This document shows, one piece after another, positions 1,245-20,227 of a stretch of DNA of 64,000 nt. A program made the position numbers and the translations under genes. Positions within the stretch are counted from its first letter, which is position 1. Each line of letters starts with the position of its first letter. Source of the stretch: Microvirga brassicacearum (GTDB lineage: Bacteria > Pseudomonadota > Alphaproteobacteria > Rhizobiales > Beijerinckiaceae); NCBI RefSeq assembly GCF_008757455.1, contig NZ_VCMV01000003.1, positions 304,322 through 368,321 of the forward strand, written 5' to 3'. The notes beneath the pieces are model-generated. The model was given only the letters and a program-made list of their open reading frames with translations, was not told the DNA's origin and searched no databases.

Positions 1245-2345
1245 ATGACCAACGACATCTTCCCTCGGCCCACGAGGGTCGGTAGAGAGCAGTTCGCCTC
1301 GTCGCGCCAGAGCGTTTTGGCAGCACCCGAGCGGAGGCTTCCCTCCGGCAACATTCGCCTGGGGGTCGCCAAGGAAATCGCGCCGACCTTGCGGGATTTC
1401 GGCATTGATCCCGATCCGGTCATCAGGGAAGTGGGCCTCGACCCGCGTGTCTTCGACGATGAGGCGAACGTGATCCCATATGCGTCCTTGGGCAAGCTGT
1501 TCGCCTTGAGCGTGGCCCGCACGGACTGTCCGCATTTCGGGCTTCTAGTCGGCGAGCGCGCAACGATCCTGTCCCTCGGCATGGTCGGGCGCTTGATGCT
1601 GCATTCGAAGAATGTGGGCGACGCGTTGCGCGCGCTCGTATCCAATCTTAGCATCCAGAACCGGGGGTCCGTCCCCCGGCTCACGATCAGCGATGACGCG
1701 GCCCTGTTCACCCTCTCAGTCTATCATCCCGAGGCCGAAAGCGCGGACCAAATTTCGGACGGAGCCGTTGCGTGCGCGGTCAACGCCATCCGGGCCCTGT
1801 GTGGACCCGGCTGGAACCCGACCGAGGTTCTGTTGCGCCGGGCTGCCCCTGCCCATCATGAGCCGTACCGGCGCCATTTCCGCGCCCTGGTCAGGTTCGA
1901 TCAGGAGATCGCCGCCATCGTTTTTCCTGCCCGTGACCTGGAGCGCAGCATCGCCGGGGCCGATCCTCTGTTGCGGGCCATGCTGGAGGAGCGGATCAGC
2001 CAACTGAAGGATGACTTAGGATCCGAATTCCCGGACGACATCCGGCGTTTGCTGCGCACGCGCTTGACCAGCCATCGCTGTTCGGCCGACGCTATTGCGG
2101 AATTGCTGGCGATGCACCGCCGCACCCTGAGCCGCCGCCTGAAGGGCAGCGGCCTGGGCTACAGGGCCATTACCAACGAAATCCGGTTCGAGATTGCCCG
2201 CCAACTGTTGGAGAACTCCAGGGTATCGCTCGTTCAGATCGCGGCGACCCTCGGCTATTCGGAGGCCAGCGCCTTCACCCGCGCCTTCCGGCGCTGGTCG
2301 GGCCGAACGCCAACCACCTGGCGCACCGAAATCCATCATGGGTGA
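1245..2345 (+). CDS. AraC-family transcriptional regulator
   Basis: The 366-residue protein has the layout of the OruR/ArgR-like AraC subgroup. An N-terminal arabinose-binding-like domain (about residues 35-230, PF12625 type) is followed by a C-terminal double helix-turn-helix domain (about residues 262-362). The second HTH carries the signature VSLVQIAATLGYSEASAFTRAFRRWSG. A purine-rich GGCGAGGCG precedes the ATG. Fifteen to twenty bases after its stop codon lies the first of three promoters carrying 21-bp direct repeats overlapping the -35, which is the geometry used by AraC-type activators. I infer that it controls the DUF2092, pta-ackA and sdaA-pfl transcription units. The inducer is unknown. 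Confidence 0.9.
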   Translation: MTNDIFPRPTRVGREQFASSRQSVLAAPERRLPSGNIRLGVAKEIAPTLRDFGIDPDPVIREVGLDPRVFDDEANVIPYASLGKLFALSVARTDCPHFGLLVGERATILSLGMVGRLMLHSKNVGDALRALVSNLSIQNRGSVPRLTISDDAALFTLSVYHPEAESADQISDGAVACAVNAIRALCGPGWNPTEVLLRRAAPAHHEPYRRHFRALVRFDQEIAAIVFPARDLERSIAGADPLLRAMLEERISQLKDDLGSEFPDDIRRLLRTRLTSHRCSADAIAELLAMHRRTLSRRLKGSGLGYRAITNEIRFEIARQLLENSRVSLVQIAATLGYSEASAFTRAFRRWSGRTPTTWRTEIHHG

Positions 2346-2359
2346 CGCGCCCACGGCCT

Positions 2360-2416
2360 AAACTGTCAAGAGATTGTCTCGGCCGGTCAAGCACGGCGCT
2401 GTAGCTCGCCTAGGAT
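2360..2416 (+). promoter_or_regulatory. Promoter P1 with 21-bp direct repeat (AraC-type activator site)
   Basis: AAACTGTCAA (2360-2369) contains GTCAAG at 2365, repeated at 2386, a 21-bp step. A -10-like TAGGAT starts at 2411, 25 bp after the second repeat. The expected -35 position reads CAAGCA, a poor hexamer overlapped by the second repeat, as in class II activated promoters. A third GTC at 2376 sits one helical turn between the two, inside GAGATTGTCTC. The spacing is identical in P2 and P3. It drives the DUF2092 gene. Confidence 0.65.
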
Positions 2417-2498
2417 GATCGGTGGGACTGTTGATCCAAAGGGCGAGCGGATGGACTCCGCTGGATCGGACCTGAGGAAGTCCAGGGAGGATTACGCG

Positions 2499-3311
2499 AT
2501 GAACCCAGGCAACGGTTCGCGTTCGGGCGCTGCGCTCACGAAGTCCGCGCTGGGCCTTCTCGCGGCAATGGCGATAACGTGCCTTCCCGCGCCCGTCGGG
2601 TGGGCCGCGGAAGGAGAGGCTCAGAATATTTTGAAGGCCATGGCGGACTATGTCGGCCGGCAGGACAACCTGTCCTTGAAATATGATGCCGATGTCGAGG
2701 TGGTGACTCCGGCCGTCGAGAAGATCCAGTTCAGCGCCTCCGGTGACGTCACCATGAGCCGCCCGAACAAGTTCCGTATTACCCGGACTGGCGGCTACGC
2801 CGATGTCGAACTCATCTCGGATGGTTCGAAGGTGACGGTCTATGACCGCGGCGGAAACAGATTCGCCCAGGTTCCTGCCGCCGGTTCGTTCGACGAGGTT
2901 GTCGATAGGCTCCGGACCGAGGCCATGCTCGAACTTCCGGGTGCGGATCTCCTGCTGTCGAAGCCCTACGAGGAACTCATGGGGGGTGTGCTGGAGGGCA
3001 AGCATATCGGCCGCGGCGTTGTCGAGGGCGTTGAATGCGAACATCTCGCCTTCCGCAATCTCGACACCGATTGGCAGATTTGGGTCGAGGTCGGTGACCG
3101 GCCACTGCCGCGCAAATACGTCATCACCAGCAAGGCGGTCGGCGCGGCACCCCAGTACACGCTGCGGCTCAGGGACTGGAAGACCGGCGTCAGCCCGGCA
3201 TCGGATGCATTTGCTTTCAAGCCGCCGGAAGGCTCCAGCGGCGTTGCGATCACTCTGCTCAAGGACATCGATGAAATTCCCGCGGGTATCGTTCCCGGAG
3301 GTGCGAAATGA
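2499..3311 (+). CDS. DUF2092 domain exported protein
   Basis: The frame extends upstream, but ATG 2499 follows a good CCAGGGAGG site and opens a classical signal peptide (hydrophobic core LGLLAAMAITCLPAP, cleavage near GWA). The mature part, about 235 residues, matches the DUF2092 family, predicted periplasmic proteins. Visible conserved stretches include DVTMSRPNKFRITR, LISDGSKVTVYD and HLAFRNLDTDWQIWVE. Its stop overlaps the next start (ATGA), so the two are probably translated together. Biochemical function is unknown. The fold may resemble LolA/LolB-like lipid-binding proteins, but that is an inference. It is the first gene after promoter P1. Confidence 0.85.
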   Translation: MNPGNGSRSGAALTKSALGLLAAMAITCLPAPVGWAAEGEAQNILKAMADYVGRQDNLSLKYDADVEVVTPAVEKIQFSASGDVTMSRPNKFRITRTGGYADVELISDGSKVTVYDRGGNRFAQVPAAGSFDEVVDRLRTEAMLELPGADLLLSKPYEELMGGVLEGKHIGRGVVEGVECEHLAFRNLDTDWQIWVEVGDRPLPRKYVITSKAVGAAPQYTLRLRDWKTGVSPASDAFAFKPPEGSSGVAITLLKDIDEIPAGIVPGGAK

Positions 3312-3604
3312 GCACTCTCACGCAAATCCGTCTCGTTGCGCTCGCATTGTCGGCTGGCAGCACGGTCCTACTCTGGAGCGGCGCCGGGCTCGCTCCATCC
3401 AGCTCGTTCATCTCCCAAGCGGAGGCGAGAGTGGGGCGCCCCGCGACACCCATGAGCTATGCCGGCGTGGCTCGACGGACCACTCGCAGGTCGGTGGCTG
3501 TTGGAGCCGCCGGAGCCGCGGCGGCAGGGTCTTACTATTATGCCGCTCCCGGCTGCGCGCAGGTCGTGAACTCCTACGGCCAGATCGTCTATCGCTGCCC
3601 ATAG
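3308..3604 (+). CDS. Small secreted hypothetical protein coupled to the DUF2092 gene
   Basis: This 98-residue protein starts inside the stop of the DUF2092 gene (ATGA overlap). Its N-terminus is a signal peptide or anchor (LVALALSAGSTVLLWSGAGL). A second Ala/Gly-rich hydrophobic segment (VGAAGAAAAGSYYYA) follows. The tail APGCAQVVNSYGQIVYRCP has two cysteines that could form a disulfide. This tail type recurs in small Rhizobiales exported proteins, but I know no function. Shared transcription from P1 and translational coupling suggest that it works with the DUF2092 protein. Confidence 0.75.
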   Translation: MSTLTQIRLVALALSAGSTVLLWSGAGLAPSSSFISQAEARVGRPATPMSYAGVARRTTRRSVAVGAAGAAAAGSYYYAAPGCAQVVNSYGQIVYRCP

Positions 3605-3646
3605 GCAGCCCCCGGTGGCTTGGCGCATTTCGTGCATGCGAGTCCT

Positions 3647-3703
3647 AAACTGTCAAAACAATGGCCCAACCAGTCAAGCAGCATATCTGGGAAGGGCCAT
3701 ACT
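3647..3703 (+). promoter_or_regulatory. Promoter P2 with 21-bp direct repeat, upstream of pta
   Basis: AAACTGTCAA (3647-3656) is identical to the P1 element. GTCAA recurs at 3652 and 3673, again 21 bp apart, and a -10-like CATACT starts at 3698, again 25 bp after the second repeat. The -35 position reads CAAGCA as in P1. The middle segment differs from P1 and P3. The leader to the pta start is about 155 bases and contains three more GGCCCAA heptamers (3739, 3755, 3767). Confidence 0.65.
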
Positions 3704-3864: not shown

Positions 3865-4845
3865 ATGGCGGCAGCGGCTTCAGCTCAGGATGCGTCTCAC
3901 GGGAGCCCGCGGCAGCACGACAAGTATGACCGGCTCGTGGCTGCCGCCCAGTCCGTTTCGAAACTGAAGGTCGCGGTGGCGCACCCCTGCGATGCGACCT
4001 CTCTGGGAGCCGTGATTGAGGCGTTCGCGCTCGGTCTGATCGACCCGATCCTGGTTGGGCCGCAGGACAAGATCACGGCCACTGCGGAGGCGCTCGGCAA
4101 GGATATTTCCGAGTTGCGCGTCGTCGAGGCCCCGCACAGCCATGGGGCAGCGGCGACGGCCGTCGATCTCGTGAAGTCCGGCAAGGCCGAGGCGCTGATG
4201 AAGGGCAGCCTGCACACGGACGAACTCATGGGCGCCGTCGTTCGCCGAGAGGGCGGCTTGCGGACGGCCCGCCGGATCAGCCACTGTTTCGTCATGGACA
4301 TTCCCGGTCACGATACCGCGCTCATCATCACCGATGCCGCCGTCAACATCGCGCCGACGCTCGAGGACAAGGTCCATATCGTCCAGAATGCCATCGATCT
4401 TGCCCGAGCGCTTGGGGTTGATCCGGTCCGCGTGGCGATCCTGTCGGCGATGGAGACCGTCAACCCGAAGGTGCCCTCGACCATCGAGGCTGCCGCTTTG
4501 TGCAAGATGGCCGACCGCGGGCAGATCACGGGCGGGATCCTCGACGGTCCGCTGGCCCTCGACAACGCCATCAATCTCGGCGCGGCGAAGATCAAGAAGA
4601 TCGAGTCGCCGGTGGCCGGGCAGGCCAATGTTCTCGTCGTCCCAGACCTCGAAGCCGGTAACATGCTCGCAAAGAGCCTGACCTTCCTCGCAGGCGCCGA
4701 CGCCGCAGGCATTGTCCTCGGCGCCCGCGTGCCGATCATCCTCACGAGCCGGGCCGACTCGGCGATCACCCGGTTGGCCTCGTGTGCCGTGGCCTCGCTG
4801 GTCGCTGACGCCCAACGCACCCGACTTGCGATCCCGGAGGTCTGA
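3865..4845 (+). CDS. pta: Phosphate acetyltransferase (PTA/PTB family)
   Basis: The 326-residue protein matches the short phosphotransacetylase/phosphotransbutyrylase family. It transfers the acetyl group of acetyl-CoA to phosphate, giving acetyl phosphate for acetate kinase. Family features include LVGPQDKI near residue 65, the KSGKAEALMKGSLHTDELM stretch, ILSAMETVNPKVPST and a C-terminal region ending ARVPIILTSRADS. A GGGAGG site precedes the ATG. The kinase gene begins four bases after the stop, so an operon is certain. An acetyl- rather than butyryl-specific enzyme is inferred from the ackA neighbour. Confidence 0.93.
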   Translation: MAAAASAQDASHGSPRQHDKYDRLVAAAQSVSKLKVAVAHPCDATSLGAVIEAFALGLIDPILVGPQDKITATAEALGKDISELRVVEAPHSHGAAATAVDLVKSGKAEALMKGSLHTDELMGAVVRREGGLRTARRISHCFVMDIPGHDTALIITDAAVNIAPTLEDKVHIVQNAIDLARALGVDPVRVAILSAMETVNPKVPSTIEAAALCKMADRGQITGGILDGPLALDNAINLGAAKIKKIESPVAGQANVLVVPDLEAGNMLAKSLTFLAGADAAGIVLGARVPIILTSRADSAITRLASCAVASLVADAQRTRLAIPEV

Positions 4846-4848
4846 AAC

Positions 4849-6057
4849 ATGATCCCCGCCCTCATCATCCTCAACGCAGGATCATCGAGCCTCAAGTTTC
4901 AGGTCTTCGAGATAGTGGACGATGCGGAGCCGCGGCTCGTCTGGAAGGGTCTCTACGAAGGCTTGGGCGGCGCCGCACACTTCATCGTCAGGCACGCAGG
5001 CGGGGCGGATCTGGATGAGATGTCTTGGGCATCAGCGGACGTATTTGGGCACGAGGAGGCACTCATGCACCTCGTCTCATGGCTGCGTGGGCATCAGGAC
5101 GGCCGCAAGCTCGCGGCCATCGGGCACCGAGTCGTCCACGGCGGCGAGGCCTTTCCCGGCCCCGAGCTGGTTGATGAATCCGTCCTCCGGTCGCTCGAAA
5201 CGCTGGTGCCACTCGCGCCGCTGCATCAGCCTCACAATCTGAAGCCGATCCAGATCATGCGCCGCCGCCTTCCGGAGTTGCCGCAGGTCGCTTGCTTCGA
5301 CACCGCCTTTCACCAAAGCCAATCCGACATTGCGAGTTTGTTCGCCCTACCTCAGGAGATTCGGGAGCGCGGCGTGCGGCGCTACGGCTTCCACGGGCTG
5401 TCCTACGACTACATCGCGTCCGTCCTGAAGGACTACGACCCGCACCTCGCCGAGGGGCGGGTGATCGTCGCGCATCTTGGCAACGGTGCAAGCCTGTGCG
5501 CCCTCAGAGGAGGGACCAGCATCGCGACGACGATGGGGTTTTCCGCCCTCGATGGCCTCCCAATGGGAACGCGCTGCGGTGCTGTCGATGCAGGGGTGGT
5601 GTTCTACATGCTCCGCGAGATGAAGCTCACTCCGGAGGCGGCCGAGCGCATGCTCTACACTAAGTCCGGCCTACTTGGAGTTTCCGGTCTGTCAAATGAC
5701 ATGCGGGTCCTTCGGGAGAGAGCGACGACGAATCCAGATGCCAAGCGCGCCATCGACCTGTTCGTCTACCGGATCACGCGAGAAATCGGATCACTTGTCG
5801 CGGCGCTCGGCGGCATCGACGGGCTCATCTTCACGGCCGGGATCGGCGAGAACGACGTTGCGACCCGCGCCGAGGTCACCAACAGCCTCGGGTGGCTCGG
5901 CCTCGTCCTTGACGAGGCCGCCAATCGTACCGGTGGCCCACGGATTTCCTCCGGACAGGGGCCTACAGCGTGGGTGATCCCCACCAACGAGGAACTGGTG
6001 ATCGCACGCCAGACGCGCAGCCTGCTCGGCGCCACGCAAGCCAGTCTCGCATCCTGA
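4849..6057 (+). CDS. ackA: Acetate kinase
   Basis: At 402 residues this has the usual length of the acetate/propionate kinase family (ASKHA fold). The N-terminal LNAGSSSLKF, HRVVHGGE, ACFDTAFH, RRYGFHGLSYDY, HLGNGASLCA, GLPMGTRCGAVD and GLIFTAGIGEN motifs are all present, so it should be active. It makes ATP and acetate from acetyl phosphate, in the cytoplasm. The gene follows pta directly. Substrate-level ATP formation fits low-oxygen or overflow metabolism driven by pyruvate formate-lyase encoded at 16-18 kb. Confidence 0.95.
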   Translation: MIPALIILNAGSSSLKFQVFEIVDDAEPRLVWKGLYEGLGGAAHFIVRHAGGADLDEMSWASADVFGHEEALMHLVSWLRGHQDGRKLAAIGHRVVHGGEAFPGPELVDESVLRSLETLVPLAPLHQPHNLKPIQIMRRRLPELPQVACFDTAFHQSQSDIASLFALPQEIRERGVRRYGFHGLSYDYIASVLKDYDPHLAEGRVIVAHLGNGASLCALRGGTSIATTMGFSALDGLPMGTRCGAVDAGVVFYMLREMKLTPEAAERMLYTKSGLLGVSGLSNDMRVLRERATTNPDAKRAIDLFVYRITREIGSLVAALGGIDGLIFTAGIGENDVATRAEVTNSLGWLGLVLDEAANRTGGPRISSGQGPTAWVIPTNEELVIARQTRSLLGATQASLAS

Positions 6058-6614: not shown

Positions 6615-9017
6615 ATGCCACGAAACGACCCGACGACCACAATCCTTCAACACGGGCTGGAGAAGAGGATGACCGAACTCGCCAGCGCGCAAACGAAAGT
6701 CGCTCAGGTCTATCAAGAGCGGTGCACAAACGCATTGCAGCGTTACCTCGACGCCGTGAATGCCGCGAGCGCGCCATCGAGCAAGGACTCGATCCACGCG
6801 ATGTCGCCTCCGGAATTGTGGCGGGACGCCGGTGCGTATTGGCTTGACTTCACGCAGCGCTCAATCCTGTTCTGGGATACCCTGCGACAGCGGGGCAATA
6901 ACTGGCTCGAACACGAAAAGGCTGGCAAACCGCCGCTACTGGATTTCGAATGGGAGACGATTGCAGATGCCCGCACGTTTGAGCGGCCTGCCAACTATGC
7001 CCTGGTGCGCATCGTTCCACCGGATGGCACCAAGACCGATCCGAATCGCCGGCCCTTCGTCATCATCGATCCGCGGGCCGGCCACGGACCAGGCATCGGT
7101 GGCTTCAAGCAGGATTCGCAGGTCGGAGTAGCGCTGAAAGCCGGGCATCCAGTCTATTTCGTAATCTTCTTTCCCGAGCCCGTGCCTGGGCAAACCCTCG
7201 CCGATGTCTCCCGCGCCGAGGCCGGGTTCCTGCGGATCATCGGCGAGCGTCATCCGAAGACCCGCAAGCCGGTCGTAATCGGCAACTGCCAGGGCGGGTG
7301 GGCCTCCATGCTCCTCGGCGCCATCGAGCCCGATCTTGTGGGGCCGATTGTCATCAATGGAGCGCCTATGTCCTACTGGGCCGGCAACGACGGCGAGAAC
7401 CCGATGCGCTACGCGGGCGGCATCCTCGGGGGCACCTGGCCCGCACTCCTCGCCAGCGATCTAGGCGCCGGCACGTTCGACGGCGCCTCCCTCGTCGAGA
7501 ACTTTGAATACCTCAACCCGGCCAATACTTACTTCGAGAAGTTTTATACGCTCTTCTCCAAGATCGACACCGAGCCGGAGCGCTTCCTCGAATTCGAGCG
7601 CTGGTGGGGCGGCTTCTTCCTGATGGACCGCCAGGAGATCAAATGGATCGTCGAAAACCTGTTCGTGGGGAACAACCTCTCGCAGGGCCAGGCGGAATGG
7701 TCTGAGGGACGCGCATACGACCTGCGGTCGATCCAGTCGCCGATTATCCTGTTCGCCTCACTCGGCGACAACATCACGCCGCCCCAGCAGGCATTCAACT
7801 GGGTCGCGGATATCTATCCGACCACTGAAGCCCTCAAGGCGAACGGGCAGGTGATCGTAGGCCTGATGCACAAGAGCGTCGGCCATCTCGGCATCTTCGT
7901 CTCGGGCCAGGTCGCCAAGCGCGAGCACACTCAGATTGTCGATCTGATCGATTACATCGAGCATCTTCCCCCTGGCCTCTATGGCATGCTGGTCGAGGAG
8001 CAGAAGACGAACGGAAGCGTGCTCTACGATGTCCTGCTGACCGAACGACGGGTCGAGGACCTTCAGGTCCTGCAGAAATACGGCCGCAAGGATGAGGTCC
8101 CGTTCGAAACGGTTGAGGCCGTCTCGGAGATGCTTGCGTCCACCTACGAAACGTTCGTTCATCCGGCGATTTCGGCGATGGCGACACCCGCTGGCGCGGC
8201 TATGAGGCGAGCCGTCCATCCCCAGCGGGTGCAGCGCTGGGCGGTATCGGATATCAACCCCTTCCTCTGGCCTCTCGGGGGCATGGCCGACATGGTCCGG
8301 GCGAACCGTGCGCCCCGCGACAACGAGGGCCCGATGGCGGCGATGGAGCGCTGGACGGCAGCCATCACCTCCGCCTCGTGGGACTTCTATCGCGACCTGC
8401 GTGATGCGTCGGTGGAAAACATTTTCTTCCGCACCTACGGCCCAGCCAGCATCGGCATGGCGGCAGCGGACACGGGCGCCGTTGCGGAAGAACTCGTCGA
8501 CGTGCGCGATACTCCACTGGTCAAGGAGGCGCTGTCGCATATCGAGGAGGGTGACCTGACGAAGGCCATCGTCCGTGCGGCCCTCTTGCTGATGAAGGCC
8601 GGCACGGGACGGCGGCGACTCTCGGCCATGAAACGGGCACGCGAACTCGTCGGCAAGGACATCGGTCTCCTTGACTTGCCGGCGGAGGCTGCGCGCGCAA
8701 TCATCCGCGAGCAGTCCTACATCGTCGACCTGGAGCCGGTGAAGGCCCTTTTGGCACTTCCGAAGCTCCTGCGGACGTCCGATGACCGGCGCAGCCTGCT
8801 TGATCTGCTCGACCGCCTGGAGGGCCGGGTCGAAGCCAATGCCAAGCAAATTGCCTTGTTCGGCGAGATCCGGCGTCTGCTCTCCGAAAGCGGCACGGAA
8901 GGTGGAGCAAAAAGTGGGCCGATGACGACCCGGCGGCGGGCGCAAGACAAGGTTCCACCGGCCGCGCCAACGACAACCGACGCACGAGGGCGAGCTCATG
9001 AACGACCAATCCACTGA
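6615..9017 (+). CDS. DUF3141 protein, PHB-synthase-like alpha/beta hydrolase
   Basis: The 800-residue protein belongs to DUF3141, related to class I poly-hydroxyalkanoate synthases. A helical N-terminal region (1-110) precedes the hydrolase core. The nucleophile elbow reads VIGNCQGGW, with Cys as the presumed nucleophile as in PhaC rather than Ser. A candidate acid (SLGDNITPPQQ) and histidine (KSVGHLGIFVSG) follow, so the catalytic triad looks complete. The C-terminal 330 residues are helical and specific to this family. Its last 20 bases overlap fabI. The reaction is not known. Polymer or acyl-CoA/acyl-ester chemistry is a guess from homology and from the fabI and pta neighbours. Confidence 0.87.
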   Translation: MPRNDPTTTILQHGLEKRMTELASAQTKVAQVYQERCTNALQRYLDAVNAASAPSSKDSIHAMSPPELWRDAGAYWLDFTQRSILFWDTLRQRGNNWLEHEKAGKPPLLDFEWETIADARTFERPANYALVRIVPPDGTKTDPNRRPFVIIDPRAGHGPGIGGFKQDSQVGVALKAGHPVYFVIFFPEPVPGQTLADVSRAEAGFLRIIGERHPKTRKPVVIGNCQGGWASMLLGAIEPDLVGPIVINGAPMSYWAGNDGENPMRYAGGILGGTWPALLASDLGAGTFDGASLVENFEYLNPANTYFEKFYTLFSKIDTEPERFLEFERWWGGFFLMDRQEIKWIVENLFVGNNLSQGQAEWSEGRAYDLRSIQSPIILFASLGDNITPPQQAFNWVADIYPTTEALKANGQVIVGLMHKSVGHLGIFVSGQVAKREHTQIVDLIDYIEHLPPGLYGMLVEEQKTNGSVLYDVLLTERRVEDLQVLQKYGRKDEVPFETVEAVSEMLASTYETFVHPAISAMATPAGAAMRRAVHPQRVQRWAVSDINPFLWPLGGMADMVRANRAPRDNEGPMAAMERWTAAITSASWDFYRDLRDASVENIFFRTYGPASIGMAAADTGAVAEELVDVRDTPLVKEALSHIEEGDLTKAIVRAALLLMKAGTGRRRLSAMKRARELVGKDIGLLDLPAEAARAIIREQSYIVDLEPVKALLALPKLLRTSDDRRSLLDLLDRLEGRVEANAKQIALFGEIRRLLSESGTEGGAKSGPMTTRRRAQDKVPPAAPTTTDARGRAHERPIH

Positions 9018-9804
9018 CCCGATTAAAGTCGCCTTCCAGTCGAAGGTTCTTCAGGGGAAGCGCGCTCTCGTCATCGGCATCGCCAACGAGCATTCGATTG
9101 CCTATGGCTGCGCCAGGGTCTTCCGCGAGCTCGGGGCCGATCTCGCAGTCACTTACCTCAACGAAAAGGCCAAACCCTATGTCGAGCCTCTCGCCAAGGA
9201 GCTCGGGGCATCGATCCTTGCGCCCTGCGATGTGGGTTGTCACGGCGATCTCGAAGCCGTCTTCCAGCAGATCCGTGAGACCTGGGGCAGCCTCGACATC
9301 GCGCTCCATTCCATCGCATTTGCGCCGAAGGAGGATCTGCAGGGACGGCTCCTCGACAGTTCCGACGAGGGGTTCAAGGTGGCGATGGACATCTCCTGCC
9401 ATTCCTTCATCCGCATGGCACGGCTCGCCGCGCCCCTCATGAGTGAGGGCGGAACGCTCCTGGCGATGAGCTATCACGGCGCCAACAAGGTGGTGCCGAA
9501 CTACAACCTCATGGGCCCCGTGAAGGCGGCGCTGGAGAGCGCGGTGCGCTATCTCGCCTACGAATTGGGCGACCAGCACATCAGGGTGCACGCCATCTCG
9601 CCGGGCCCCCTGAAAACCCGGGCGGCCTCCGGCCTGAAGGATTTCGATGTCCTGCTTTCGGAGGCTGTCGAACGGGCGCCCATCGGCGAGCTGGTCGACA
9701 TCGAGGATGTCGGCCTCACGGCGGCCTTCCTGACGACGCCGTTCGCCAGGCGGCTCACCGGAATGACCACCTATGTCGACGGCGGGCTCAGCATCATGGC
9801 GTGA
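8998..9804 (+). CDS. fabI: Enoyl-[acyl-carrier-protein] reductase FabI
   Basis: This 268-residue short-chain dehydrogenase has the FabI-specific N-terminus GKRALVIGIANEHSIAYGCA, the SIAFAPKEDLQGRL segment and the catalytic Tyr-x6-Lys in NYNLMGPVKA. It reduces the enoyl-ACP double bond in fatty-acid elongation. The start lies 20 bases inside the DUF3141 gene, preceded by GAGGGCGAGCTC. Sitting in a pta-ackA/DUF3141 operon, it may be a condition-specific second copy rather than the housekeeping enzyme. The window cannot show whether another fabI exists. Confidence 0.93.
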   Translation: MNDQSTDPIKVAFQSKVLQGKRALVIGIANEHSIAYGCARVFRELGADLAVTYLNEKAKPYVEPLAKELGASILAPCDVGCHGDLEAVFQQIRETWGSLDIALHSIAFAPKEDLQGRLLDSSDEGFKVAMDISCHSFIRMARLAAPLMSEGGTLLAMSYHGANKVVPNYNLMGPVKAALESAVRYLAYELGDQHIRVHAISPGPLKTRAASGLKDFDVLLSEAVERAPIGELVDIEDVGLTAAFLTTPFARRLTGMTTYVDGGLSIMA

Positions 9805-9838
9805 GGGGCTCCTGCATAGGGAGCGTGAGGAGAGAGCC

Positions 9839-12006: not shown

Positions 12007-13452
12007 TCAGAAGTCGCGCTGAATACGTAGACGACTCTCCCAGCTATCCGCCGAGCCCGTCGACTTAAAGAAGCCCGTCGATTCGCCGGCGGCGGTCGTG
12101 AGTGGAACTGCAACACGTCCCCGTGGATCCACCCTTGTGTATAGGACCTCGACGCCGATCTGGAGCCCGGTGACCGGTGTCCAGATGGTGTTGGTGCCGA
12201 TGCGGTACTCGTTGAAGTCGAGGAGGCCCGTCGCAGTGCCGGCCGTGCCGGCAGTGATGGTCGCGGCATTCGCCGGTACGATGAACCGGGCACCCGCCGG
12301 AGCGTCAAAGCGCATCCACGACCCAAAGATGTTCGTCGCGAAGGCCCGGTTCCAGTTATGGTTGAGGCCGCCGGCGACGCCATAGGCCTTGTTGGTCTTG
12401 AACTCGCCCGTGAATGGATCGACAAAGGCGTCCGCAAAGGGCAGCGCGAGCGGGCCGGCGCTGATTACGCCCTCGTTGATGGGGCCTGCTTGGCCGGCAT
12501 TGATGTAACCGACCGCACCATCCGTGTAGGTAGCCGAAATCCAGGCTGTATCGGCCTCGCCGAGAAACGGCAGCTTGACCACAGTATTCAGCGCGATCGC
12601 GAAGCCATAATCCGTGTCAGCAAAGGTCGGGTTCGGCAGGCCGGTGAGCGGGTTGAGCACGGGGACGACGACACCGTCGACGGTGGTGACGCCGGCCGCC
12701 ACGTCACGGATCTGATGCAGCGCGCTGGAGAGTTGTACGCTGCCCCAGGTGCCGGTATAGCGCAGGTTCGCAACCACATCCGGCACGCGCTGACCACCGT
12801 AATTAAACGGGAGCGGAGCTGCCGCACCCACACCGAAGAGCGGGAACACGAGTGGGTTGTTGACGCGACGTTCGAGCGCATCTTCAAGCGATAGGGTCGC
12901 CGAGAAGCCATTCCCGAAGGAGAACGTATAAGCGAGCAGATCCACATCCGCGTTGGTAGGGTCGTCGAAGCGCAGATCGCCGAAGTTCGGCGCCGGCAGT
13001 TCAGAGTCCGAGAAGAACGACGTGACCCGTCCGGCCGTCAGGCCGCCAAACTGGACATAGGCCTGGTTGATCTTCGGGTTGGTAGAAATCTCCCCGGGGC
13101 TTGCAAACGCACCTGAGTTGCGATCGATCTCATACCGGATATAGGAGCGCAGCAGGCCATACGCCGTCATCGTGCGGGTGTCGAGGTTCAGACGGCCACG
13201 GGCACGAAAGCCGGTGATGTCCTGAGCGCGGGTGAATGGCTCGGCGTAGAGGTAGTCGGCACGAACCCGACCGCCGATGCGCAGGCATGTCTCGGTACCG
13301 GGGATATAGAAAAAGCCTTGCCCGTAGGTGGAGCACACGCGAACGTACTCGACGGGAGCTGCCTTCGCGATGGGAAGATCGGCAGCTTGAGTGCCTGTAA
13401 CAACAGCGAGCCCGGCAGCAGAACCGATTATCAGGCTCCGAAGATGCGGCAT
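12007..13452 (-). CDS. Outer-membrane porin (Porin_2 family)
   Basis: From ATG 13452 (GGAG eight bases upstream) the protein has 481 residues. A signal peptide ends near GTQAADL. The start of the mature chain, AAPVEYVRVCSTYGQGFFYIPGTETCLRIGGRVR, is typical of alphaproteobacterial Porin_2 proteins, with two cysteines probably disulfide-bonded. Alternating beta strands follow and the protein ends in an aromatic residue (RIQRDF), as outer-membrane barrels do. It should form a general diffusion pore. The gene lies downstream of the transporter gene in the same direction with a 153-base gap, so it may have its own promoter. Confidence 0.92.
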   Translation of the reverse strand: MPHLRSLIIGSAAGLAVVTGTQAADLPIAKAAPVEYVRVCSTYGQGFFYIPGTETCLRIGGRVRADYLYAEPFTRAQDITGFRARGRLNLDTRTMTAYGLLRSYIRYEIDRNSGAFASPGEISTNPKINQAYVQFGGLTAGRVTSFFSDSELPAPNFGDLRFDDPTNADVDLLAYTFSFGNGFSATLSLEDALERRVNNPLVFPLFGVGAAAPLPFNYGGQRVPDVVANLRYTGTWGSVQLSSALHQIRDVAAGVTTVDGVVVPVLNPLTGLPNPTFADTDYGFAIALNTVVKLPFLGEADTAWISATYTDGAVGYINAGQAGPINEGVISAGPLALPFADAFVDPFTGEFKTNKAYGVAGGLNHNWNRAFATNIFGSWMRFDAPAGARFIVPANAATITAGTAGTATGLLDFNEYRIGTNTIWTPVTGLQIGVEVLYTRVDPRGRVAVPLTTAAGESTGFFKSTGSADSWESRLRIQRDF

Positions 13453-13605
13453 AGTATTGGCTCCGAGATCAAACTTACGCTCGCGATGATGCAAGCGTGG
13501 GCAGATCGGAGAACTCGTCAAGCCAACCTGGGGCTGGAGTTGCCTCACTTTCGTACAATCACGCCCAGTGTTGCCCACCAGCACCACTTCAAGCGTGTCC
13601 CAAAC

Positions 13606-15174
13606 TCAGCTCAGCAGGACCTGAACAGCAATAATCTTGACGATGGTCGTGCTTGGGAAACAGATCGCATAACCAATGTCGGTCCTGTCGGTTGGAGCCA
13701 GACGCCCAGCTGCGGCGACGATTGCGGGATTTCCGGTTGAGCCGGCGCAGACGCCGAGCAGATCGTCGAATGGAATGCGCAGCAGATAGCCGCCGACCAG
13801 CACGATCAGCACCAATGTGAGCAGCACGGCGGCTCCGCCAAGCAGGATTTGTATTCCGTTAGACGCTACGGTTTGTACAAAGGGGCTTCCCGCGCCGATC
13901 GCAACCGACCCGATGAAGATCGACAGTCCTAGGTTCCGCAGAACGAGATTTGCCACAACAGGCATTCTCCAGCCGATTGGGCCGGTACGGCCGAGCCAGC
14001 CAAGGATAAGCGCCATGACCAGCGGCCCGCCCGCCACGCCCAAGCTGAATGTGCCGCCTCCCGGCAGGGGAACGGGGATCATGCCGAGGAGCAAGCCGAG
14101 TGCGATCCCGACACCGATCGAGACGAAGGACAATTCGGCGTTGCCCTTGATGCTGTCGCCGAAATGGCGCCGGACCTCGGCCTGCCTGCCTGTAGGAACC
14201 GCAGCCACGAGCAGGTCGCCGTATTCAATCGTCAAATCAGATGAAGCAAAGAGTTCCAAATCCCCCCGGCGCACGTGCGAAATCGTCACTGGGAAGTCGG
14301 GAAGAACAAGATCGCCAAGAGGCTTGCCGACGAAAGCCGCTTTGGACACGTACACCCGCACCACATCATAATTCGCACGATCGCGGCTCAGGCGGCCCGG
14401 CTCCTCTCGCCCCATGAATGCCTTGGCCTGTTCGATGCTGCTTGGGCTGCCGACCAAAAGCAGACCGTCGCCCGGCTCCAATTTTGTTCCAGAAACAGGA
14501 GGAGCATTCACGTGATCGTGGCGTACGGCGACGATCTTGACGTCAGCCGGCAACGTCGTGGAGAGTTCTTCGATAGTCCTTTCCCGGTCGCCGGATTCAA
14601 GGGTCAGCTCGGCAAGTCGCACATTCTGTGACGGTGGCGAGAATTTGGGTTTGACCAGCGCTGTCATGATCGTCATCAGAATGATGGGACCGATCACACC
14701 GAACGGGTACGACACCGAGTAGCCGATCGCCGGATCCTGGTTACCTGCCGCGGCCAATGCCGCTTGCAGGGTCGGCGTGCTGGTGCCCGAACCGGCAAAG
14801 AGTCCGGCCGCCGTCCCGAGCGAAATTCCAAGAGGCCCGGCAAGCAACATCGCGACACCGAGAGAGGCGACCACTGCAAATGTCGCCAGAGCAATATACT
14901 TGATGCCCGGGCCGCGAAGGCTGGCAAAGAACTGCGGCCCGTATTGAATGCCGACGCCGTACACGAACATGACAAGGCCGATGGTTCCAACCATTCCGGA
15001 AGGCGCAGCCTTCGGCGCAATGGCCCCAATGATCAGGCCGGTGAACAGGACTGCGCCGGCGCCAAACGAAACTCCCCCAAACGAGATTTGGCCGAGTGCA
15101 TAACCGGTGGCGATAGCGAGAAACAACGCCAGCAAGGGGGACGATTCAAGCAGGGTGCGAAGGACTTCAATCAT
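13606..15174 (-). CDS. AspT/YidE-type transporter with two TrkA-C domains
   Basis: The 522-residue membrane protein shows the duplicated layout of the aspartate:alanine exchanger family. Five or six N-terminal helices include the GSGTSTPTLQAAL motif. Two soluble TrkA-C-like domains (about 195-275 and 285-360) follow, then five or six helices with the mirrored motif GVCAGSTGNPAIVAAA. It starts nine bases after the pflA stop, so it is the last gene of the sdaA-pfl operon. I infer exchange of an amino or organic acid linked to serine, pyruvate or formate. The actual substrate is unknown. Confidence 0.87.
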   Translation of the reverse strand: MIEVLRTLLESSPLLALFLAIATGYALGQISFGGVSFGAGAVLFTGLIIGAIAPKAAPSGMVGTIGLVMFVYGVGIQYGPQFFASLRGPGIKYIALATFAVVASLGVAMLLAGPLGISLGTAAGLFAGSGTSTPTLQAALAAAGNQDPAIGYSVSYPFGVIGPIILMTIMTALVKPKFSPPSQNVRLAELTLESGDRERTIEELSTTLPADVKIVAVRHDHVNAPPVSGTKLEPGDGLLLVGSPSSIEQAKAFMGREEPGRLSRDRANYDVVRVYVSKAAFVGKPLGDLVLPDFPVTISHVRRGDLELFASSDLTIEYGDLLVAAVPTGRQAEVRRHFGDSIKGNAELSFVSIGVGIALGLLLGMIPVPLPGGGTFSLGVAGGPLVMALILGWLGRTGPIGWRMPVVANLVLRNLGLSIFIGSVAIGAGSPFVQTVASNGIQILLGGAAVLLTLVLIVLVGGYLLRIPFDDLLGVCAGSTGNPAIVAAAGRLAPTDRTDIGYAICFPSTTIVKIIAVQVLLS

Positions 15175-15183: not shown

Positions 15184-16005
15184 TCATCTTGCACGGCAGC
15201 CCGCGTCACGAAATTGTCCCAGCACACGCGCTACCAGATCGGGTGAAGGCGACGGGGTATCGAGTAACTCGTAGTCGAGTCCTGCAGCCTTCCATTTGAA
15301 GCTGCCCATCTGATGGAATGGGAGGACCTCGACCCATTCGACGTTGCTCATTGGCGCCACGAACCGGGCGATTCCCTCGACATTTGCAGGATCGTCGGTC
15401 AGGCCGGGCACCAACACAAAGCGGACCCAAACAGGCTTGCCGAGATTTGCCAGACGCTCGGCAAACTCAAGCGTCGGACGCAGATCCTGGCCCACGGCAC
15501 GGCGGTACGTCGCGGGGTCCCACGACTTGATGTCGAGCAGCACGAGATCGACCAGGCGAAGGTAATCATCGTCGGCACGCGCACCCAGAAAACCTGATGT
15601 ATCCAAAGCGGTATGGACTCCCATCCTCTTGGCGGATGCGAACAGCCTCTTTGTGAAATGCATTTGAACCAACGGTTCCCCGCCCGATATGGTCAGCCCA
15701 CCGTCCATGGCACGCAGCGCCGCCGCATAGGACGTCAATGCCTGTTCGGCACGCTCGAAGGAAACGCGCGTACCGTCCTTGAGATGCCATGTATCGGGGT
15801 TGTGGCAATAAAGGCATCGCAACAGACAGCCGCTCATGAACACTGTGACGCGAATTCCAGGTCCGTCAACGGTGGATCCGGTCTCATACGAATGGATCCA
15901 TCCGACATCGCCCCGTGGATCGTTGAATTCGGCCGTCTCCGGCGCGTCAGGAGATTGTGACAGACGCAACGCGTACCGACTATTGGCCCAAGGTTCGTCG
16001 GCCAT
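15184..16005 (-). CDS. pflA: Pyruvate formate-lyase-activating enzyme
   Basis: This radical-SAM enzyme reductively cleaves S-adenosylmethionine to place the glycyl radical on PflB. The cluster motif CLLRCLYC (Cys-x3-Cys-x2-Cys) and the SAM-binding SGGEP are present, and the length fits (about 273 residues). The frame also offers GTG 16020 overlapping the pflB end. ATG 16005 is preferred because GAGTGAGG lies about nine bases upstream. The gene directly follows pflB and precedes the AspT-type transporter. The enzyme is oxygen sensitive, so activity implies anoxic or micro-oxic growth. Confidence 0.93.
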   Translation of the reverse strand: MADEPWANSRYALRLSQSPDAPETAEFNDPRGDVGWIHSYETGSTVDGPGIRVTVFMSGCLLRCLYCHNPDTWHLKDGTRVSFERAEQALTSYAAALRAMDGGLTISGGEPLVQMHFTKRLFASAKRMGVHTALDTSGFLGARADDDYLRLVDLVLLDIKSWDPATYRRAVGQDLRPTLEFAERLANLGKPVWVRFVLVPGLTDDPANVEGIARFVAPMSNVEWVEVLPFHQMGSFKWKAAGLDYELLDTPSPSPDLVARVLGQFRDAGCRAR

Positions 16006-16016
16006 GATGTCAAGCC

Positions 16017-18362
16017 TCACTCACCGTGGAAAGTACGGCTGATGACGTCCATTTGCTGCTCCTTCGTGAGGCGGACGAAATTTACCGCATAGCCCGAAAC
16101 CCGGATCGTCAATTGCGGGTACTTGTCCGGATGCTCCATCGCGTCGAGCAATGTATCGCGATTCAGGACGTTGAGGTTCATGTGAAACCCTCCCTGGCCG
16201 CAATACGTGTCGAGCACCTTCACCGCCTGAGCGATCTTCTGGCCCTCATCCAGGCGGTTGAGGCTCGGTGTCACGGACACGGTGTAGCTGATGCCGTCTT
16301 GCGCATCAGCGTAAGGCAGTTTGGCGACGGATAGGCACGATGCGAGCCATCCGTGGCTGTCACGGCCATGCATCGGGTTGGCGCCGGGAGCAAAGGGCTC
16401 CCCGGCCTTGCGGCCATCCGGCGTGTCGCCGGTGTTCTTGCCATAGACGACGTTGCTCGTGATGGTGAGGACCGACTGCGTATGAACGGCATTGCGATAG
16501 GTTGGATACTTGCGGATCTTCTTCATGAAGGTGGAGACGAGGTCGGCCGCAATGGAGTCCACGCGATCGTCATTGTTGCCGTATTTCGGGAAGTCACCCG
16601 TGGTCTCGTAAGCGACGATCAGTCCGTCCTCACGCCTGATCGGCCTGACCTTTGCGTGTTTGATCGCGGAGAGGCTGTCGGTCACCACCGACAGTCCAGC
16701 GATGCCGAAAGCCATCGTGCGCAGGATCTGCTGGTCATGGAGCGCCATCTCCAAGCGCTCGTAGTAGTACTTGTCGTGCATGTAATGGATGCAGTTCATG
16801 GCATGGACATAGGTTTGTGCCAGCCACTCCATCATGCTGTCGAACTTCGTCATCACGTCGTCGAATTCGAGAACTTCGCCGGTCACGGGCGCCACCGCTG
16901 GGCCGACTTGGTCGCCACTCACCTCGTCCCGCCCGCCATTGATGGCGTATAGCAGGCACTTGCCGAGGTTGGCCCGCGCGCCGAAGAACTGCATCTGGTT
17001 GCCGATGCGCATGGCCGACACGCAGCAGGCAATTCCATAATCGTCGCCCCAATAGGGACGCATGAGGTCGTCGTTCTCATACTGAATGGACGACGTCTCG
17101 GCCGAAACCTTGATGCAGTAGCGCTTGAAGCCGTCAGGAAGTTGCGTCGACCAAAGCACGGTGATGTTGGGCTCTGGCGCGGGCCCGAGATTCGTCAGCG
17201 TATGCAGCATGCGAAAACTGGTGCGCGTGACCAGTGGCCGGCCGTTAAGATCCATACCTCCGATGCACTCGGTTGCCCAATAAGGGTCGCCCGAGAACAG
17301 CGCGTCATAGTCCGGCGTGCGCAGGAATCGTACGATGCGGAGCTTCTGCACAAACTGATCGACGAGTTCCTGAGCACCCGCCTCATCGATAGCGCCGCTG
17401 CTCAGATCGCGCTCGATGTAGATGTCCAGGAAGGACGAAACACGTCCGATGGACATGGCAGCGCCATTGGCTTCCTTAATGGCTCCGAGATAACCGAAAT
17501 AGGTCCACTGCACCGCCTCACGCGCATTCGCCGCCGGCCGCGTGATGTCGAGGCCGTAGCTCTTGGCCATGGTCGCGAGGTCACTCAGTGCCCGCGTCTG
17601 CTCGGCCAGTTCCTCGCGCTCGCGGATCACGTCATCGGTCGGCCATTTCGCGTCCAGCAATGCCCGCTCAGCGCGCTTTGCTTCCAGCAACCTGTCGGTT
17701 CCGTACAATGCCACCCGGCGATAGTCCCCGATGATCCGGCCCCGACCGTAGGCGTCCGGCAGCCCCGTGATGATGTGGCTGCGCCGACAGGCCATGATCT
17801 CCGGCGTATAGGCGTCGAAGACACCTTCATTGTGGGTTTTGCGATACTTGGTGAAAATGTCGTGCACGATCGGATCCGGCTCAATGCCGGCCGCCTTCAA
17901 ACCCGCTTCGACCATGCGGAGGCCTCCATACGGCATGATGGCCCGTCGGAATGGCGCGTCGGTTTGCAGACCGACAATCACTTCATTGTCGCGATCAATG
18001 TACCCGGGAGGATGCGAGGTGAGCGAAGAAGGAGTTTTGGCATCGGCGTCCAAAACGCCTTTGCGGATTTCCTCTTTGAAGTAAGGCTGAAGTTTGGCCC
18101 AGACAGCTTTCGTCCGGTCGGTGGAGCCGATCAAAAATCCCTCGTCTCCGTCATACGGCGTGACATTGCGTTGAATGAAATCGCGGACGTCGATGGCATG
18201 CTGCCACCGCCCTGGCGCGAAGCCCGACCATTCAGCGACCGAGACTGCGATTTCCGTTGTGGGTGGCGTTGTTTTGACCGCGAAAGATCCGGTTCTCTCG
18301 TGTCCTGCTGCCTGCTTCAGGGTATCCGCGGATGTCTGAGTGGCAATGGCTTCACCTGGCAT
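16017..18362 (-). CDS. pflB: Formate C-acetyltransferase (pyruvate formate-lyase)
   Basis: The 781-residue glycyl-radical enzyme converts pyruvate and CoA to acetyl-CoA and formate. The paired catalytic cysteines are in [12 protein letters not shown]. The radical glycine is in [10 protein letters not shown] near the C-terminus. Further pyruvate formate-lyase features are [27 protein letters not shown] and NPMHGRD. All key residues are present. About 25 extra residues at the N-terminus are Ala/Thr-rich. It lies between sdaA (69-base gap) and pflA. Its acetyl-CoA can feed the Pta-AckA pair at 4-6 kb. Confidence 0.96.
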
Positions 18363-18431
18363 GACAGCTTCCTCCCGGCGACGATCGTTCGTCTTTGATT
18401 CAGCACTTCTCTCACTCGGCGGGCGAAGGAC

Positions 18432-20060
18432 TCAGCAGAGGACAAGGTTCTGTGCCAGCCCCGCCTCGCTCGTTTCCTTGTATTTAGCGTTCATGTCCCG
18501 ACCCGTATCGGCCAGCGTCTTGATCGTCGTATCAAGATCGACGCGGTGGCGGCTCGCGATCTCGTTGGTGGCGACCATAAAGGCAGTCCAGGCCTTCACC
18601 GCACCAAAGGCGCAACGCTCGATGCAGGGAACCTGCACGTAGCCCGCAACTGGGTCGCATGTCATGCCCAGATGGTGCTCAAGAGCCGACTCTGCTGCGT
18701 TCTCGATGACCTGCGGCGAGCTGTCCATGATTTGCGCGATCAAGGCAGCTGACATGGCCGAAGCCACTCCGACTTCGGACTGACAGCCGCCTTCGGCTCC
18801 AGACAGCGTTGCGTTGTGCTTGCACAGATATCCGACAGCCGCGCCGGCGAGCAAACCCTGACGGATTTTCTCCAGCGGCACCTTCCGCTGGCTCTCTGTA
18901 AGCGCATACACAACCGCCGGCATAACACCTGCAGAGCCACCCGTGGGCGCGGTGATGACAAGGTGGCCACGGGCGTTCTCCTCCGATGCAGCCAACGCGC
19001 AGGCGGCAACCAGTGCGATCGCGCGGTCGCTCTCGTACTTCTGATCCATCGCCCGTTCCCAGACGGTCGCAGCCTTCGAGTGAAGCTTGATCGGGCCAGG
19101 CAGGACATCATCTTTCATGGAGAGGCCGGCTTTCACCGTCGCGAGCATTGCGCCGGCGATCTTGTCCAGAAACGCGTTGATCTGTTCCTCGCTCTTGCCG
19201 GATACCGCGACCTCATTCGCCATGACCACGTCGGCGATCGAAAGGTTGTTCGTCTCCGCGTGCCGCCGCAGCTCTTTCATGGTGGAATAGGGGTATTTCG
19301 GCTGGCCTTTTTTGGGGGGCTCATAACCCTTCCACTCGATGAATCCACCTCCGACCGAATAATATTCAAGCTCGGATAACGCCTTGTCGCCTGCCATAAG
19401 CTTGCAGGTCATCGTGTTCGGGTGCGGAAACTCGCCTTTCGGCGCGTCGTAGATGATGTCGGCGAGGGAAAGATTGAACGTTTTGCCGCCGAGTTGGACC
19501 GGATAGGTTTGCTGGGGTTTGGCGATCATTTCGTCGAGGAAGAGAGGATCCACGGTTGCCGGCTCCTTGCCGATCAAACCCGCCAACGAGGCCCGCTCGG
19601 TGCCATGGCCTTTACCGGTGGCGCTCAAGCTGCCGAACAGATGTACCTTGAGACCGGTCGCCTGCGCTAGCTGGTCGGCTGGCAGCTTCGTGCAGCGTTG
19701 ATAGAAATCGTACGTGATCCGCATCGGTCCGATCGTGTGCGAACTCGAGGGACCTGGCCCTACCTTGTAGAACTCTTCGAGCACGGTCATCACCGGCCCT
19801 TTCGACTTCTTGACGACGTCTAGGTCGGGCGAAAGCGTGCCACTCATCTTGAGCCCGGAGGCGTCCTTTGCAGCCTGCTGAGCGACCGCCTCTTTCGCGG
19901 CCTGCTGCGCACGGGCTTCGGGTGCCCAGGTGGTCCCGGTCATCGCCGCCGCCGCGCCGATGGCGGCGTGGCGCATGAGAAATGCGCGACGGTCCATGCC
20001 CGGGACCTCAGATGTCTCCGGAAGGGGCGGGAACGGCTTGTTCTTGCTCGAGCGCGTCAT
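18432..20060 (-). CDS. sdaA: L-serine ammonia-lyase (iron-sulfur) with Tat-like leader
   Basis: The catalytic part matches single-chain iron-dependent L-serine dehydratases (serine to pyruvate and ammonia). The beta domain starts about residue 87 (GPGPSSSHTIGPM). The alpha domain contains APTGGSAGVMPAVVYAL, and three cluster cysteines lie in GGCQSEVG, MTCDPVAG and ERCAFGA. Unusually, the N-terminus carries an extra 70-85 residues with a twin-arginine motif (DRRAFLMR, Arg24-Arg25), an Ala-rich hydrophobic stretch and a cleavage-like ARA-QQ near residue 51. That predicts Tat export of the folded protein. ATG 20060 is chosen because GGGAGA precedes it. It heads the sdaA-pflB-pflA-transporter operon. 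Confidence 0.9.
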   Translation of the reverse strand: MTRSSKNKPFPPLPETSEVPGMDRRAFLMRHAAIGAAAAMTGTTWAPEARAQQAAKEAVAQQAAKDASGLKMSGTLSPDLDVVKKSKGPVMTVLEEFYKVGPGPSSSHTIGPMRITYDFYQRCTKLPADQLAQATGLKVHLFGSLSATGKGHGTERASLAGLIGKEPATVDPLFLDEMIAKPQQTYPVQLGGKTFNLSLADIIYDAPKGEFPHPNTMTCKLMAGDKALSELEYYSVGGGFIEWKGYEPPKKGQPKYPYSTMKELRRHAETNNLSIADVVMANEVAVSGKSEEQINAFLDKIAGAMLATVKAGLSMKDDVLPGPIKLHSKAATVWERAMDQKYESDRAIALVAACALAASEENARGHLVITAPTGGSAGVMPAVVYALTESQRKVPLEKIRQGLLAGAAVGYLCKHNATLSGAEGGCQSEVGVASAMSAALIAQIMDSSPQVIENAAESALEHHLGMTCDPVAGYVQVPCIERCAFGAVKAWTAFMVATNEIASRHRVDLDTTIKTLADTGRDMNAKYKETSEAGLAQNLVLC

Positions 20061-20114
20061 AGGCCCATTCTCCCGTTGATAGCCGAGCCGCAAAGTGTGG
20101 TGCAAACGTCCTCA

Positions 20115-20139
20115 CTCTCATCTCGGAGCGAGATGAGAG
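20115..20139 (-). promoter_or_regulatory. Perfect hairpin in the leader of the sdaA-pfl operon
   Basis: CTCTCATCTCG (20115-20125) and CGAGATGAGAG (20129-20139) are exact inverted repeats around a 3-base loop, an 11-bp stem. It lies about 25 bases after the predicted transcription start of P3 and 55 bases before the sdaA ATG. There is no U-run, so it is more likely a transcript-stabilising structure or an operator than a terminator. Confidence 0.5.
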
Positions 20140-20167
20140 CTGCGCCTCTCGAACCAGTCTTTGAACC

Positions 20168-20227
20168 ATCCTAGCCTCGCCCGAACCCCACGCTTGATCG
20201 ATCGGGACAATCCCTTGACAGTTTGAG
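20168..20227 (-). promoter_or_regulatory. Promoter P3 with 21-bp direct repeat, upstream of sdaA-pfl
   Basis: Read on the minus strand, AAACTGTCAA (20224-20215) is identical to P1 and P2. GTCAAG begins at 20219 and ATCAAG at 20198, 21 bp apart. A TAGGAT -10 starts at 20173, 25 bp after the second repeat. The -35 position reads CAAGCG. The middle GGGATTGTCCC and the P1 counterpart GAGATTGTCTC differ at both arms in a compensating way, which suggests that the palindrome matters. The flanking CTAGGATG is shared with P1. Confidence 0.65.

Follow-up and report, generated by a model that had tools for sequence, protein, structure and literature searches.

A candidate AraC-type regulon with tandem 21-bp-period boxes ahead of fermentation and envelope-related genes in Microvirga brassicacearum

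The araI site of the Escherichia coli AraC/araBAD system is composed of direct-repeat half-sites that recur with a 21-bp period and overlap the -35 position. Here we analyse a similar arrangement in a 64,000-nucleotide stretch of Microvirga brassicacearum DNA (hereafter the window; contig NZ_VCMV01000003.1, positions 304,322 to 368,321 of the forward strand), which carries an AraC-family regulator gene and four putative promoters, P1 to P4, marked by tandem boxes (Table 1). These boxes share with araI the direct-repeat half-sites, the 21-bp period and the overlap with the -35 position, whereas the half-site sequence, the PF12625 N-terminal domain of the regulator and the presence of several target operons distinguish the Microvirga system from that of E. 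coli. In a published account, induction shifts the E. coli AraC dimer to araI1/araI2, in the vicinity of RNA polymerase (PMC6018408).

The closest described box that we found is the ARG box of Pseudomonas ArgR, given in excerpts of one report as TGTCGC-N6-GNAA, in tandem and 5 bp apart (PMC10963909). As reported there, the ARG half-site resembles the Microvirga half-site in its length of 16 bp, in starting with TGTC and ending with AA, and in the 5-bp gap that results in a 21-bp period; the middle of the half-site differs. Identity with the ARG box was rejected because, despite the same length and period, the Microvirga consensus over 78 sites is GTCCCAAACTGTCAAG and not the TGTCGCN6GNAA of these excerpts, the comparison being one of the boxes alone. 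ARG box spacing is described in the same excerpts as variable in P. alloputida.

By its domains, the regulator is a member of the AraC/XylS family, PF12625 subgroup: PF12833 and PF00165 score 66.8 and 33.7 bits (cut-offs 33.6 and 26.6), and PF12625 scores 136.5 bits (cut-off 27.6). Direct-repeat half-sites two helical turns apart, as expected of the binding sites of this family, are found in the boxes to which the protein would bind. Homologues in six Microvirga records are 69-77% identical. The best named NCBIfam model, QhpR (NF049968), reaches 219.7 bits, below its cut-off of 250, and this identity was rejected. The closest solved chain by sequence is the distant VirS (structure 8rcx; residues 47-360, E 4.3e-27), a mycobacterial regulator with other targets. 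No description of the present regulon was found in a few searches of an open-licence library, the only literature covered; we regard it as a new addition to the AraC-type activator systems, whose geometry it shares.

P1, P2 and P3 have an identical geometry, as claimed in a preliminary description made from the sequence alone: the second GTCAA (or ATCAA) follows the first with a 21-bp period, and the distance from it to the -10-like hexamer (TAGGAT, CATACT and TAGGAT, respectively) is 25 bp in each case. The word AAACTGTCAA occurs three times in the window (at 2360, 3647 and, on the minus strand, 20224), against a chance expectation of 0.03, and GTCAA-N16-RTCAAG occurs four times (expectation 0.03), the fourth match, at 40756, lacking the preceding AAACT. 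All three exact matches of AAACTGTCAA-N17-TCAAG in the whole genome (5,220,401 bases, 82 contigs) fall within the window; beyond these, the genome has a single match with one mismatch and four with two. By comparison, all 38 genome matches of a control pattern with the spacing one base off (N16) have exactly three mismatches. The P1-P3 sites exceed chance. P1 starts 10 bp past the regulator stop codon.

A fourth, weaker site, P4, which had been overlooked, precedes the gene of an 85-amino-acid protein. It scores 34.7 bits; Markov-shuffled window sequence (5.1 Mb) gave no score above 8.8. The P4 proximal half-site fits the consensus, the distal half-site departs from AAACTGTCAA at three positions, and the -10 offset is 26 bp rather than the 25 bp of P1-P3.

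The structure of the box was derived from sites with at most two mismatches, 82 in all, taken from 40 fetched stretches (39 from regulator-bearing relatives and one from the M. brassicacearum genome), six named Microvirga loci and the window. Four sites (L131, L165, L136 and L145) were dropped by judgement as lone hits, leaving 78; two sites preceding DUF2092 genes (L094 and L133) were retained, although flagged as intragenic by the mechanical gene caller. The resulting frequency table reads G(T/G)CCCAAACTGTCAAG, then GTCCC.A.CGGTCAAGCA, which corresponds to a tandem direct repeat of the 16-bp half-site with a period of 21 bp. Hence the repeats noted earlier exist, each of them being only the right-hand part of a half-site. 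Columns absent from the search pattern are conserved as well, namely -5 to -2 (G at -5 in 74/78 sites, C at -3 in 72/78), 15-18 (TG(T/G)C), 32-33 (CA) and the -10 at 51-56 (A in 65/78, T in 63/78), and the GTCC part recurs at -5 and at 16. Self-correlation of the table over lags 5-44 peaks at lag 21 (0.74), followed by 0.44 at lag 43. Among 34 fetched stretches, TGTCAA and RTCAAG words (GTCAA to GTCAA) are 21 bp apart 49 times and at another distance between 8 and 59 bp once.

The position of the box relative to the -10 is also fixed. TAnnnT lies at offset 25 in 40 of the 78 sites, and in five at most at any other offset from 8 to 47. Since columns 28-33 of the proximal half-site lie 17 bp before the -10, the -35 hexamer falls inside this half-site. 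No TTGACA-like hexamer is present at the -35 place in the 78-site table or in a scan of 2200-4000, a region that spans P1 and P2 and in which a consensus scan found no sigma-70 -35/-10 pair. The earlier statements that the second repeat covers a poor -35, and that the layout is AraC-type, agree with these data: a 21-bp direct repeat over the -35 and a fixed -10 distance are, as far as sequence goes, the layout of a class II promoter.

The genome was also scanned with a sequence-only model (R1) built from 61 sites of relatives, none from the window, and excluding 14 two-mismatch sites. Only the 5.2-Mb M. brassicacearum genome is held out, the scores of relatives' sites being high partly by construction, as these served for training. 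P3, P2 and P1 rank first to third in it, and the next-best match has an E of 1.1e-5.

The boxes track the regulator gene. Within the genus (48 genomes), the orthologue is present in 31, in 30 of them at E <=1e-130 and in G586 as a 77% identical fragment at a contig edge. Each of the 31 has 3 to 22 boxes at E 1e-6, whereas 16 of the 17 genomes without the orthologue have none, the exception being G608. At the level of the family (199 genomes), 36 genomes have a match at one mismatch at most. All 10 genomes with an exact match lie among the 12 carrying a 68-100% identical regulator; the other two of these 12 have one-mismatch matches, and the remaining 24 matching genomes have one or two isolated one-mismatch hits. 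In an R1 scan of 30 genomes, best E values range from 7.5e-10 to 9.7e-15 in the 12 with the orthologue, 11 of which supplied training sites, and from 6.2e-6 upwards in 18 without it, which were chosen rather than drawn at random.

Boxes are also kept at orthologous genes. The P2 box is found before pta in all nine regulator-bearing genomes that have a pta of at least 76% identity (45-67 bits). Of the remaining three with the regulator, G055 and G087 carry pta genes of 56-60% identity only, and G157 lacks a pta at E 1e-60. In G142, which has a 54% identical regulator, the pta box has diverged (17 bits). The preliminary description had counted sites missing from relatives that keep the genes as evidence against the regulon; G196 does keep a 79% identical pta without a box, and lacks the regulator too. 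No box precedes five pta paralogues (57-60%) of the regulator-bearing G015, G087, G055, G112 and G115. Likewise, the P3 box precedes sdaA in the 6/6 genomes tested that have an 84-100% identical orthologue, each of them regulator-bearing. Seven distantly related sdaA genes (39-43%) lack it, and none of their genomes carries the orthologous regulator. Pairwise identities of box, spacer, -10 and remaining sequence are 0.83, 0.46, 0.72 and 0.28 at P2, and 0.81, 0.37, 0.78 and 0.31 at P3. The link of the boxes to the neighbouring AraC gene, marked as inference in the preliminary description, is well supported by such patterns of co-occurrence and conservation.

The 1245-2345 product is very likely an AraC-family activator of the P1-P4 units that works through the tandem boxes. 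A dimer would bind the pair of half-sites, 21 bp or two helical turns apart, each monomer reading two parts, GTCC and GTCAA, separated by roughly one turn, with a presumptive assignment of its domains to the two parts. As the proximal half-site would occupy the -35 place, with a TAnnnT -10 25 bp after its GTCAA, the promoters are predicted to be weak alone and to depend on the bound activator contacting RNA polymerase (class II activation). The activator would turn on DUF2092 and a small protein from P1, pta-ackA-(170 amino acids)-DUF3141-fabI-AI2E from P2, sdaA-pflB-pflA-exchanger-porin from P3, and the 85-amino-acid, putatively exported protein from P4. Binding, activation rather than repression and the limits of the operons are what we infer from sequence. 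Serine is converted via pyruvate to acetyl-CoA and formate, and further to acetate with the gain of one ATP, by an established pathway, the steps of which the P3 and P2 enzymes would jointly carry out.

Several observations weigh against this assignment. The co-occurring genomes are related, which deprives the counts of independence, and the cut-off for orthologues (E 1e-130) was chosen with the list already in view. As the search pattern included both the 21-bp spacing and the GTCAA words, the frequency of this spacing is partly a matter of construction. No box above 7 bits was found within 1.5 kb at 18 loci around 35-54% identical AraC homologues in the family; the box is therefore no general mark of this AraC subgroup. 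G608 has three boxes, one of which (60.5 bits) stands before a pta 89% identical to that of the window, yet the best regulator found in it is only 54-55% identical. Moreover, the DNA-binding domain is, by eye, largely common to the orthologue group, its paralogues and short proteins consisting only of the helix-turn-helix (HTH) part. The last two points suit a rival reading, in which the boxes do serve an activator and a paralogue uses them, alone or together with the window regulator; this would be either the AraC protein on contig C34 (51% identical to the window regulator, with very similar recognition helices) or the HTH-only AraC proteins, whose genes are themselves preceded by a box in G122, G183 and M. 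calopogonii. We consider this improbable, given that no box at E <= 1e-6 occurs in G142 or G578, each of which has a 54% paralogue, that boxes beside paralogues (C34, C60, G142) deviate from the consensus in the AAAC part, and that boxes occur in 31/31 orthologue-bearing genomes.

A regulator that binds the boxes and represses would also be compatible with the proximal half-site over the -35, where it could block RNA polymerase. This seems very unlikely: little is left to repress at a -35 place without a TTGACA-like hexamer, the box to -10 distance is kept as expected for polymerase contact, and AraC-family proteins bound over the -35 are mostly activators. Scarcely credible is a third alternative, in which an oxygen regulator (FNR/FixK) rather than the AraC protein would use the sites, or these would be duplicated repeat DNA that travels with the genes. 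RTCAAG does resemble half an FNR site, and PFL and pta-ackA are often FNR-controlled elsewhere, but no TTGAT-N4-ATCAA with fewer than three mismatches is present in the 400 bp upstream of pta or sdaA in the M. brassicacearum genome, and the presence of boxes in the genus follows the AraC gene. Repeat DNA is also at odds with the comparison of P1-P4 by eye, in which likeness is confined to box and -10, with none visible in spacers and flanks.

Under the preferred assignment to the neighbouring activator, an uncharacterised AraC-type regulator gains a concrete candidate binding site, a target list and a promoter mechanism, and a local activator would act on fermentation genes of Microvirga-like bacteria, in place of the usual oxygen regulators or in addition to them. 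As to the signal, loss of respiratory energy or membrane/ion stress is a tentative guess, made because targets in relatives include PPK2, an F1-ATPase inhibitor, ion exchangers and channels; this energy/ion theme rests on gene names. A wider and more speculative scenario, which we regard as rather unlikely in its entirety, is an undescribed "energy emergency" regulon of Microvirga-like bacteria, in which an old AraC-DUF2092 pair, perhaps still present in another family, would have multiplied its box to 3-22 copies per genome and brought under its control the whole serine to acetate plus formate route of ATP formation and, in relatives, PPK2, the F1-ATPase inhibitor and ion transporters. Such a regulon would be self-damped in some species through box-controlled HTH-only copies, and would feature a serine deaminase outside the cytoplasm.

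Table 1. Putative promoters and genes of the regulon in the window.
Feature	Coordinates	Strand	Remarks
AraC-family regulator, 366 amino acids	1245..2345	+	Pfam: PF12625 (Arabinose_bd) N-terminal domain and HTH_18/HTH_AraC
P1	2355..2416	+	Distal half-site 2355-2370, proximal 2376-2393, -10 TAGGAT 2411-2416; E 2.7e-13
DUF2092 periplasmic protein	2499..3311	+	P1 unit; Pfam; open reading frame opens at 2415, likely start 2499 after GGGAGG
98-amino-acid protein, signal-peptide-like start	3308..3604	+	Second P1-unit gene; no Pfam hit
P2	3642..3703	+	Distal half-site 3642-3657, proximal 3663-3680, -10 CATACT 3698-3703; E 2.4e-13
pta, phosphate acetyltransferase	3865..4845	+	P2 unit; Pfam; NF008852 above cut-off
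ackA, acetate kinase	4849..6057	+	P2 unit; passes Pfam
Conserved protein of about 170 amino acids	6090..6602	+	P2 unit; no Pfam match; 6090 is not an ATG and the true start is uncertain
DUF3141 protein	6615..9017	+	P2 unit; weak PHA synthase resemblance, below the cut-off of that model
FabI-type enoyl-ACP reductase	8998..9804	+	P2 unit; Pfam/NCBIfam
AI-2E-family membrane protein	9773..10948	+	Overlaps fabI; Pfam
85-amino-acid protein, signal-peptide-like start	10977..11234	-	P4 unit; preceded by GGAGGAAGG
P4	11285..11347	-	Distal half-site 11347-11332, proximal 11326-11309, -10 TAGAAA 11290-11285; E 1.9e-5
Porin_2 porin	12007..13587	-	Follows exchanger gene
AspT/YidE-type exchanger	13606..15174	-	P3 unit; duplication-domain model above cut-off; aspartate-alanine antiporter model below
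pflA, PFL-activating radical-SAM enzyme	15184..16020	-	P3 unit; TIGR02493 above cut-off
pflB, formate C-acetyltransferase	16017..18362	-	P3 unit; TIGR01255 above cut-off
sdaA, L-serine ammonia-lyase	18432..20060	-	P3 unit; open reading frame opens at 20105, likely ATG at 20060
P3	20168..20229	-	Distal half-site 20229-20214, proximal 20208-20191, -10 TAGGAT 20173-20168; E 9.7e-15

The gene content of the units is broader than first described. The pta-ackA-DUF3141-fabI series of the P2 unit was recognised, and the conserved gene between ackA and DUF3141 omitted; the AI-2E-family gene is probably the last of this unit. Similarly, the sdaA-pflB-pflA-transporter series of P3 stands, to which the porin gene is to be added, probably as the last gene; a Porin_2 homologue follows the exchanger gene in two relatives. 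The label "fermentation genes" fits P2 and P3 and is too narrow for the whole, as P1 and P4 (two of the four units in the window) encode proteins with an exported or periplasmic look, and envelope, ion-transport and energy genes stand behind boxes in relatives. The M. brassicacearum genome has a single pta copy at E 1e-60. SdaA scores 420.6 bits with TIGR00720 (cut-off 345.1), and PflB 1133.5 bits with TIGR01255 (cut-off 994.2). PflB contains GIACCVSAM and RVSGY, with the Cys-Cys pair and the glycyl-radical motif that mark pyruvate formate-lyase. The SdaA N-terminus features a twin-arginine-like export signal (RRAFLMRHAAIGAAAAMTG...ARAQ), the RR-x-FL of which is kept in 6/6 orthologues, and SdaA is possibly an exported serine deaminase. 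The 98-amino-acid protein has counterparts, each encoded by the second gene of a P1-like unit, in M. vignae (84% identity) and G115 (70%), and the 85-amino-acid protein matches a G122 protein, itself encoded behind a strong box, at 58% identity over 95 columns. The window further encodes, at 22478-24166 and thus a few kb past P3, a serine recombinase with Resolvase and Recombinase domains.

Box-headed units in relatives encode a Na/Ca exchanger with an ion channel, aquaporin, ATPase inhibitor zeta (the F1-ATPase inhibitor), MscS and PPK2, as well as SulP, Usp, phasin, sulfatase, an LTXXQ protein and numerous small proteins whose starts are signal-peptide-like. These target lists are provisional, as genes were called mechanically, some were missed and the distance from the box to the assigned first gene is 300-620 bp in some cases. 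Short AraC proteins of the HTH-only type (about 140-165 amino acids), with similar recognition helices and a box in front, were seen at L142 near 6723, L135 near 7112 and L094 near 14661. The box ahead of HTH-only AraC genes suggests feedback.

Beyond the family, the search covered 397 genomes of the order. The regulator is found at E 1e-75 in the M. brassicacearum genome and in three genomes of other families (G476, G573 and G202), and the extended box, at one mismatch at most, in the M. brassicacearum genome, G272 and G476. G476, in which a 45% identical regulator and a 30.8-bit box lie side by side and the gene behind the box encodes a sulfatase, is the one genome of another family in which a strong regulator match coincides with a strong box. 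The G272 box (35.8 bits) comes after a short AraC-like match (45 residues, 47%). G573 and G202 have a weak box-like site (16.5 and 11.9 bits) upstream of the regulator on the opposite strand, found by looking near the regulator; in G202, a 12.7-bit site occurs elsewhere in the same 13 kb. The gene behind the weak G202 site encodes a DUF2092 protein, to which that of the window is 51% identical, and DUF2092 lies behind the box in seven examined loci, window included. An older AraC-box-DUF2092 pairing, with fermentation operons recruited later, is plausible, and the 18 boxless family loci described above speak against it.

Weaker boxes of the M. brassicacearum genome (E 1.1e-5 to 1.0e-4) lie on C34, near the paralogue, on C60, before an FGE-sulfatase gene, and on C54, at a contig edge, the last resembling a G157 site. 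They are not claimed as targets of the window regulator. In variant boxes, found on C34 (L164 8717) and C60 (L238 4174) and in G142 (L242, L243), CATT or GATC replaces AAAC; these stand near a 51-54% identical paralogous regulator or before an FGE-sulfatase gene. They perhaps represent a sister regulon with altered specificity, and would illustrate how, among paralogues, regulator and site can diverge in step. Two related boxes in G184 (L246 6011 and 6989; 34.2 and 33.6 bits), in which GTAAA replaces GTCAA, adjoin a distant AraC homologue, and one of them precedes an SDR-like gene.

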